Below are positions 41,548 to 42,094 of a stretch of 64,000 nucleotides of DNA, in pieces. This DNA is from Slackia exigua ATCC 700122. Lineage in GTDB: Bacteria > Actinomycetota > Coriobacteriia > Coriobacteriales > Eggerthellaceae. How positions within the stretch are numbered: position 1 is the stretch's first letter; each line of letters begins with the position of its first letter. The notes under the pieces were generated by a model. That model had not been told where the DNA came from. It saw only the letters and a list, made by a program, of their open reading frames with translations, and did not search any database. The translations under genes and the position numbers were made by a program. The DNA is taken from assembly GCF_000162875.1 (NCBI RefSeq), contig NZ_GG700630.1, positions 508,325 through 572,324 on the forward strand, in the 5' to 3' direction.

Positions 41548-41624
41548 TGGTAGCGGTGACTGGATTCGAACCAGTGACGCCACGGGTATGAACCGTGTGC
41601 TCTAACCAACTGAGCTACACCGCC
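41548..41624 (-). tRNA. tRNA-Met (CAT), elongator type
   Basis: Acceptor GGCGGTG pairs with CACCGCT and ACCA is encoded. The anticodon stem CACGG/CCGTG encloses TTCATAC. The initiator-specific GGG/CCC stem is missing, so this is an elongator, or possibly a tRNA-Ile2 with a modified C34. Confidence 0.9.
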
Positions 41625-41660: not shown

Positions 41661-41736
41661 TGGAGCCCGCGACCGGACTTGAACCGGTGACCTCTTCGTT
41701 ACCAACGAAGTGCTCTACCGACTGAGCTACACGGGC
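41661..41736 (-). tRNA. tRNA-Thr (GGT)
   Basis: Acceptor GCCCGTG pairs with CGCGGGC. The anticodon stem CTTCG/CGAAG encloses TTGGTAA (anticodon GGT). TCCA is encoded. Confidence 0.95.
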
Positions 41737-41741
41737 AAAAC

Positions 41742-41826
41742 TGGTGGGCGCGCTAGGATTCGAACCTAGGTAGGCAGAGCCAACGGGTTTACAGCCCGTC
41801 CCCATTAACCGCTCGGGCACACGCCC
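41742..41826 (-). tRNA. tRNA-Tyr (GTA)
   Basis: Acceptor GGGCGTG pairs with CGCGCCC. The anticodon stem ACGGG/CCCGT encloses CTGTAAA (anticodon GTA). There is a long variable arm, and ACCA is encoded. It is the first gene of the tRNA-tuf unit and is 5 bases from tRNA-Thr. Confidence 0.95.
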
Positions 41827-41914
41827 AGTTTCATAAGGTGCTCGATTTCATGTGTACTTTTCAAGCTGCCAGCTCACGCAATCGAAAAGGGCTTTCGAAC
41901 TCGTGAGCGAAAGT

Positions 41915-41943
41915 ATATTACGCTAGGGTCCCTAGCGTGTCAA
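41915..41943 (-). promoter_or_regulatory. Consensus promoter with palindromic 17-bp spacer, upstream of tRNA-Tyr-Thr-Met-tuf
   Basis: On the minus strand, TTGACA (41938-41943) and TAATAT (41915-41920) are 17 bp apart. The spacer 41921-41937, CGCTAGGGACCCTAGCG, is a perfect 8+1+8 palindrome that exactly fills the gap. The start would be near 41908, about 80 bases before the first tRNA. The palindrome is placed as in MerR-type or tight repressor operators; the regulator is unknown. Confidence 0.88.
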
Positions 41944-42094
41944 CACTTTACACGCCTCCGGGCGTATCGTATCTCCAACACCTGATGCAAGGCTCGCGAA
42001 CTGGGATTCCGGCAATAGGCTTTGAAAATCGCCGCGATGGCTCGACCGGCTCGCCGATAAATTCCCCACATCGGGAAAACCCCGTCCGAAACGC

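Follow-up and report, generated by a model that had tools for sequence, protein, structure and literature searches.

What controls the tRNA-tuf promoter of Slackia exigua, and does the palindrome between its -35 and -10 boxes have a part in it? The promoter stands 5' of an operon made up of tRNA-Tyr, tRNA-Thr, tRNA-Met and tuf, within the 64,000-nucleotide stretch of DNA that was analysed (here called the window). An earlier note on this locus described a 17-bp spacer that is a perfect palindrome and proposed that an undescribed dimeric regulator of translation capacity acts through it. Features of the region are collected in Table 1.

Table 1 Features of the tRNA-tuf region, in window coordinates
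Feature	Position	Strand	Remarks
Probable WhiA operator GATACGCCCGGAGGCGTGT, predicted	41950..41968	-	core GATACGCC at 41968-41961; kept in 30/30 tuf loci
-35 box TTGACA	41938..41943	-	6 bp 3' of the 19-bp element
17-bp spacer; not conserved; palindromic throughout as 8+1+8, or as 9+1+9 when one base on either side is counted	41921..41937	-	
Spacer 3' end and -10 box (CTAGCG-TAATAT)	41915..41926	-	alignment of 30 loci
Conserved leader stretch GGCAGCTTGAAAAGTACACAT	41850..41870	-	alignment of tuf loci; preceded by a hairpin-like stretch of variable sequence
tRNA-Tyr (gta)	41742..41826	-	
tRNA-Thr (ggt)	41661..41736	-	
tRNA-Met (cat)	41548..41624	-	
tuf, elongation factor Tu, 400 aa	40261..41463	-	

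Symmetry and conservation of the promoter spacer

The described promoter is present on the minus strand as TTGACA, CGCTAGGGACCCTAGCG and TAATAT (41920-41915), with the palindrome as perfect as claimed. Its symmetry extends to 9+1+9 (41920-41938), because the A that closes the -35 box is complementary to the T that opens the -10 box. Across the whole window, perfect palindromes with 8-base arms and a 1-base loop numbered 3, a count not beyond chance expectation: 20 dinucleotide shuffles averaged 2.55. Those with 9-base arms numbered 2, compared with 0.6 in the shuffles. Exact filling of the spacer is unlikely for one promoter fixed in advance, but this promoter was chosen post hoc and the fit is not conserved. 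Downstream of the -10 box, the transcript leader (41850-41914) has a hairpin-like variable stretch and, before tRNA-Tyr, a conserved segment reading GGCAGCTTGAWAA-TACACAT.

The tuf region was matched in 58 of 61 genomes (the S. exigua genome included), and the best 30 of the 58, with the S. exigua locus among them, were aligned. TTGAC is kept in all 30 loci and is followed in each by a 17-bp spacer and a TANNNT -10 box. The spacer ends in TAGCG in 25 of the 30, as counted by hand, and its left half is variable. The dyad itself is not conserved in the 29 aligned relatives: the best of them has 5 paired positions out of 8 in the spacer; among the 10 relatives of the same genus, the best pairing is 4 of 8. 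Because the -35 and -10 boxes are conserved while the palindrome is not, an outcome that the earlier note itself had named as refuting its idea, the proposed spacer operator is unsupported.

The palindrome did not behave as a recurring site either. It is single-copy in the genome, its next-best matches carry 2 mismatches, and its candidacy as a repeated operator was rejected on finding no other copy within 1 mismatch. When 100 genomes were scanned with up to 2 mismatches allowed, 26 had a match, none of the matches being at the located tuf promoters of relatives, and the reversed-pattern control exceeded the palindrome in match count. One 2-mismatch copy is a second 17-bp palindrome, CGCAAGGGTCCCAAGCG (G000:C1:499016-499032, L002), which was set aside; judged by eye, it lies inside the rpsM coding sequence, and six same-genus genomes share it.

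An operator for a dimeric regulator that is new in Slackia exigua could account for the way in which the perfect 9+1+9 dyad lines up with the promoter boxes, and the spacers of the 29 relatives do pair slightly more than those with shuffled left halves (mean 2.62 of 8 compared with 2.05, P 0.0075, 2000 trials). That excess, however, lies in the outer pairs (1.90 of 4, compared with 0.72 of 4 for the inner pairs), and the low ceiling of pairing in the relatives, together with the lack of a further site within 1 mismatch in the genome, leaves this explanation highly improbable. MerR-type promoters, with which the earlier note compared this one, have longer spacers, of 19-20 bp. The present promoter resembles them in having a dyad between -35 and -10, and differs in a spacer that is 17 bp in 30/30 loci and in a dyad that is not conserved. 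Instead, the palindrome looks like a chance feature of one genome: because its right half coincides in part with the conserved end of the promoter, only the left half, which would owe its symmetry to chance, is peculiar to this genome.

A 19-bp element shared by translation operons

A 19-bp element, GATACGCCCGGAGGCGTGT (consensus GAYACDCCCGGNNGCGTGK), is located 6 bp upstream of the -35 box. It is exact to the consensus in 22 of the 30 aligned tuf loci, with 1 mismatch in 7 and 2 mismatches in 1, although these loci were partly found through the element, since most tuf matches begin at that block. TTGAC follows at an offset of 26 from element position 1 in 27 of the loci and of 27 in the other 3. 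Upstream of the element, no conservation was seen in the alignment of 30 tuf loci.

The best matches in the S. exigua genome after tuf are directly upstream of rpsL-rpsG-fusA and of rplB. A profile was built from 79 sites, the genome's own tuf, rpsL and rplB sites among them, and returned rpsL (E 1.3e-4), rplB (3.8e-4) and tuf (5.5e-4) ahead of a next match at 0.35, with 150 of 2314 first-look candidates scored. The rpsL alignment comprised 30 loci, drawn from 56 of 61 genomes with a match, and 21 of the 30 were found via matches that do not reach the element. All 30 carry it (26 exact, 4 with 1 mismatch), and TTGAC begins at an offset of 23 from element position 1 in every one.

At rplB the arrangement is different. 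The gene follows the element in the S. exigua genome and in 20 further loci (19 by motif, L215 by eye); these loci (L199-L218) were picked for carrying the element and show the identity of the downstream gene, not its frequency. In 20 of the 21 loci the -10 box starts 31 or 32 nt before the element, and in the remaining one 35 nt before it, which would place the element about 20 nt after the inferred transcription start. A mere extension of the -35 box was ruled out as an identity for the element, the rplB copy being located downstream of the -10 box. The element is asymmetric and points toward its gene at every site counted.

The mRNA leader of rplB, examined over about 80 nt starting at the element's 3' end (L238, L199-L218), contains a conserved series, CGGAGTCG ... 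GGCAATCG ... CCAC. The element's 3' end forms one side of its outer stem, and RNAalifold predicted 11 pairs, only 1 of which is changed on both sides. No Rfam match was obtained for this leader at gathering score (L062). It is possibly a ribosomal-protein feedback leader.

Allowing up to 1 mismatch, the element pattern gave 192 matches in the 61 genomes (own included), compared with 12 for the reversed control, and matched 59 of them; in the class Coriobacteriia, 144 of 149 genomes were matched. Both the 61-genome and the class counts include coding mimics in fusA, for which the reversed-pattern control does not correct. The mimic is a stretch of fusA encoding the EF-G motif DTPGHV (GAYACNCCCGGNCACGTGG), which inflates pattern scans; element-like matches roughly 1.3 kb past the rpsL site were judged to be this coding stretch and not sites, and at least 6 such mimics are among the matches listed in the 61-genome scan.

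From other orders of the class, 40 loci were hand-picked among the matches listed, with fusA-like ones left out. Ribosomal-protein genes, tuf or nusG follow the element in 37 of the 40: rpsM-rpsK in 10 (L303 by rpsK only), rplM-rpsI in 10, rpsL-rpsG in 6, tuf in 3, rplU-rpmA, rpsP and rpsO-pnp in 2 each (L330 by pnp only), and rpsA and the nusG region in 1 each. The other three picks (L312, L321, L336) lack any of these translation genes. Pfam confirmed examples of L13, S13, L21, S16, S15, S1, NusG and L27 downstream of the element. Translation genes also follow 7 of 19 further family- or order-level sites (L219-L237), namely hpf twice, rpmB, an EF-G-like gene, rplC, and rplB twice (L220, L222, L230, L231, L235, L236, L237); the remaining 12 have no translation gene downstream or lie inside coding sequence.

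An exact search with the tuf form in 84,980 species (one genome each) returned 62 matches. Downstream of 58 of them lies a tRNA-Tyr-like gene, tuf or both; another 3 lie where the retrieved piece stops; and the remaining one, in a Hydrogenedentota record, is without these genes nearby. In the wider phylum outside the class, pattern matches were mostly background or the EF-G stretch, with 4 exact ones among the matches listed.

Two arrangements were observed in passing. Element copies occur in pairs 33 bp apart, once upstream of a hibernation factor gene (L235:358-409, the second copy weaker) and once as two 1-mismatch matches (G010:C9:70298-70349). In ten rpsM upstream regions (L300, L303, L306, L311, L317, L319, L322, L327, L331, L333), the element is followed by CTGCGGCTGG in 10/10 and AGATAGAT in 9/10, and no TTGAC -35 box was found after it in these loci.

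WhiA as the predicted binder

At all three sites in the S. exigua genome, the first eight bases of the element fit the WhiA core GAYACRCY (GATACGCC twice, GATACACC once). Position 6 of the core is A or G in 110 of 121 aligned sites and T, outside GAYACRCY, in 11. The genome encodes a full-length WhiA as a 307-aa ORF (L354:1798-2721, minus strand) with N-terminal, LAGLIDADG and HTH Pfam domains, all three above cut-off. Judged by sequence, the 19-bp element is very probably an operator to which WhiA would bind.

Of the 149 class genomes, 143 have WhiA, and so do all of the 124 with a completeness of 90% or more; since it is nearly universal in the class, its co-occurrence with the element discriminates little. 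Co-loss of the two was set aside as uninformative, 4 of the 5 class genomes without the element (at 1 mismatch) keeping WhiA (G118, G122, G158, G168) and G110 being without both. In Streptomyces, WhiA autoregulates whiA; no strong profile site was found at whiA itself in the S. exigua genome (150 of 2314 candidates scored). A search for WhiB (PF02467) gave no match in this genome and, across 99 class genomes, a single match that was weak and partial; the C. glutamicum control was positive.

A study of Mycoplasma gallisepticum (PMC11701221) reports that the rpsJ operon is bound by WhiA at GAYACRCY and repressed, that binding was shown with purified protein, that WhiA covers 34 bp, and that high ATP leads to release of an auxiliary motif. 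The same study places the WhiA site of Mollicutes about 22-40 nt after the transcription start and the core upstream of rpsJ in most examined bacteria retaining whiA; B. subtilis WhiA is described there as a reported non-specific DNA binder (PMC11701221). Thioredoxin reductase, secG and replication genes, and no ribosomal ones, are the predicted WhiA targets in the available part of an earlier Mollicutes study (PMC5138195). The likeness to the Mollicutes rpsJ operator includes the core (GATACACC in M. gallisepticum, GATACGCC or GATACACC here), the placement at ribosomal-protein operon promoters, and the rplB site just after the inferred transcription start. The present system differs in that several operons share the site, which at tRNA-tuf and rpsL-fusA lies upstream of the -35 box, and in a conserved 19-bp form with GCGTG and with the -35 box in place of the auxiliary GTTGT. 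GTTGT was not seen as such; at tuf and rpsL, the -35 TTGAC falls within the length of a 34-bp footprint.

In S. venezuelae, excerpts of a published ChIP study (PMC3781837) list rpsJ, rpsH, infA, efp and rpsA among the WhiA targets, all of them down in a whiA mutant, and locate the WhiA motif 75 bp from the start of rpsJ. The GACAC core and the ribosomal-protein targets are held in common with the S. venezuelae regulon (PMC3781837). A second study, likewise in excerpt, found WhiA and WhiB mutually required for binding in vivo and few of about 15,000 GACAC copies bound (PMC4850268). In that species the main role of WhiA, exerted jointly with WhiB, is in sporulation, whereas no WhiB was found here and the three strong sites (150 of 2314 candidates scored) are all at translation operons. 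Large-genome actinomycetes also possess a near-identical 19-mer at rpsJ and rpsL: GACAC(A/G)CCCGACCGCGTGG was located upstream of rpsJ in 8 loci and of rpsL in 6, the 14 loci (one genus, g155, probably Streptomyces, and one genome of another family) having been picked for carrying the string. The distance from site start to start codon at rpsJ is 83-88 nt in six loci of one genus.

The element might instead be bound by a different DNA-binding protein, one whose evolution in Coriobacteriia was coupled to that of the ribosomal-protein operons. At 19 bp it is longer than the WhiA core, its right part, GCGTG, is conserved and goes unmentioned for WhiA sites in the portions of the literature available, and some WhiA-bearing genomes are without the element. 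The absence of WhiB counts partly against WhiA as well, because WhiA and WhiB bind interdependently in vivo in S. venezuelae; purified Mycoplasma WhiA, however, does bind. Against such another protein stand the identity of the core with that of WhiA and the fact that ribosomal-protein operons are WhiA targets in two other groups, and we regard it as improbable. The observations are best explained jointly, and in our judgement with good probability, by a WhiA operator that joins tRNA-tuf, rpsL-rpsG-fusA and rplB in this genome, and further ribosomal-protein operons in other Coriobacteriia, the palindrome being due to chance. The earlier note's regulator of translation capacity is partly supported: sequence-specific control of the promoter gains support. 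This control would act through a different, upstream element, and the probable regulator, WhiA, has already been linked to ribosomal-protein operons in other bacteria.

Direction of control and significance

In the working proposed here, the HTH of WhiA would sit on GAYACRCC, the site pointing to the gene, and its LAGLIDADG-like domain would reach downstream, which at tuf and rpsL means onto the -35 box. If it began at the core, a 34-bp footprint would cover the -35 box at these two promoters and would lie just inside the transcribed region at rplB, where the site is about 20 nt past the inferred transcription start, as in mycoplasmas. By analogy with Mycoplasma WhiA, low ATP may lock WhiA on the DNA and lower transcription, and high ATP may free it. 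The site positions favour an ATP-gated repressor; the Streptomyces data favour activation. On balance, we consider repression to have roughly an even chance, with its direction and ATP link suggested by analogy.

Activation of tuf and rpsL by WhiA from the element, through contact with sigma region 4 beside the -35 box and independently of WhiB, is a less likely possibility. The element is directly upstream of the -35 box at a near-fixed offset, but the rplB site downstream of the -10 box is an odd place for an activator, and the tuf promoter by itself already comes close to the consensus. PDB entries 8dy7 and 8dy9 contain WhiA, and we take them to represent complexes of RNA polymerase that include WhiB as well, positioned upstream of the -35 box; WhiB, however, is undetected here, apart from the weak partial match in the class. 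The lowered expression of translation targets in the S. venezuelae whiA mutant (PMC3781837, in excerpt) and the resemblance of the WhiA HTH to the sigma domain reading the -35 box, noted in the available part of a review (PMC4255298), also agree with activation.

WhiA control of the rpsJ operon is already known from the literature. In the open-licence literature, no account was found that places a WhiA operator in Coriobacteriia at tRNA-tuf, at rpsL-fusA, at rplB or at the wider set of operons, and the available portions of a review covering WhiA and Coriobacteriales contain no mention of a translation regulon (PMC4255298). A broader proposal, which we see as evenly balanced, is that WhiA is an ancestral, class-wide master regulator of ribosome production, with one operator serving many operons, linked to ATP without WhiB, and with a sporulation role acquired later. 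If so, a single 19-bp operator would coordinate tRNA-tuf, str, rplB, rpsM, rplM, rplU, rpsP, rpsO and rpsA, the hibernation factor gene hpf would join the regulon in some species, and the control of sporulation in Streptomyces would be a later use of WhiA. The supply of ribosomal proteins is thought to be set mainly by ppGpp and translational feedback. A class-wide DNA operator common to many translation operons would add a layer of control, and if it is read by WhiA, a widespread protein whose general function is unsettled, a non-sporulation role of that protein would become directly testable.
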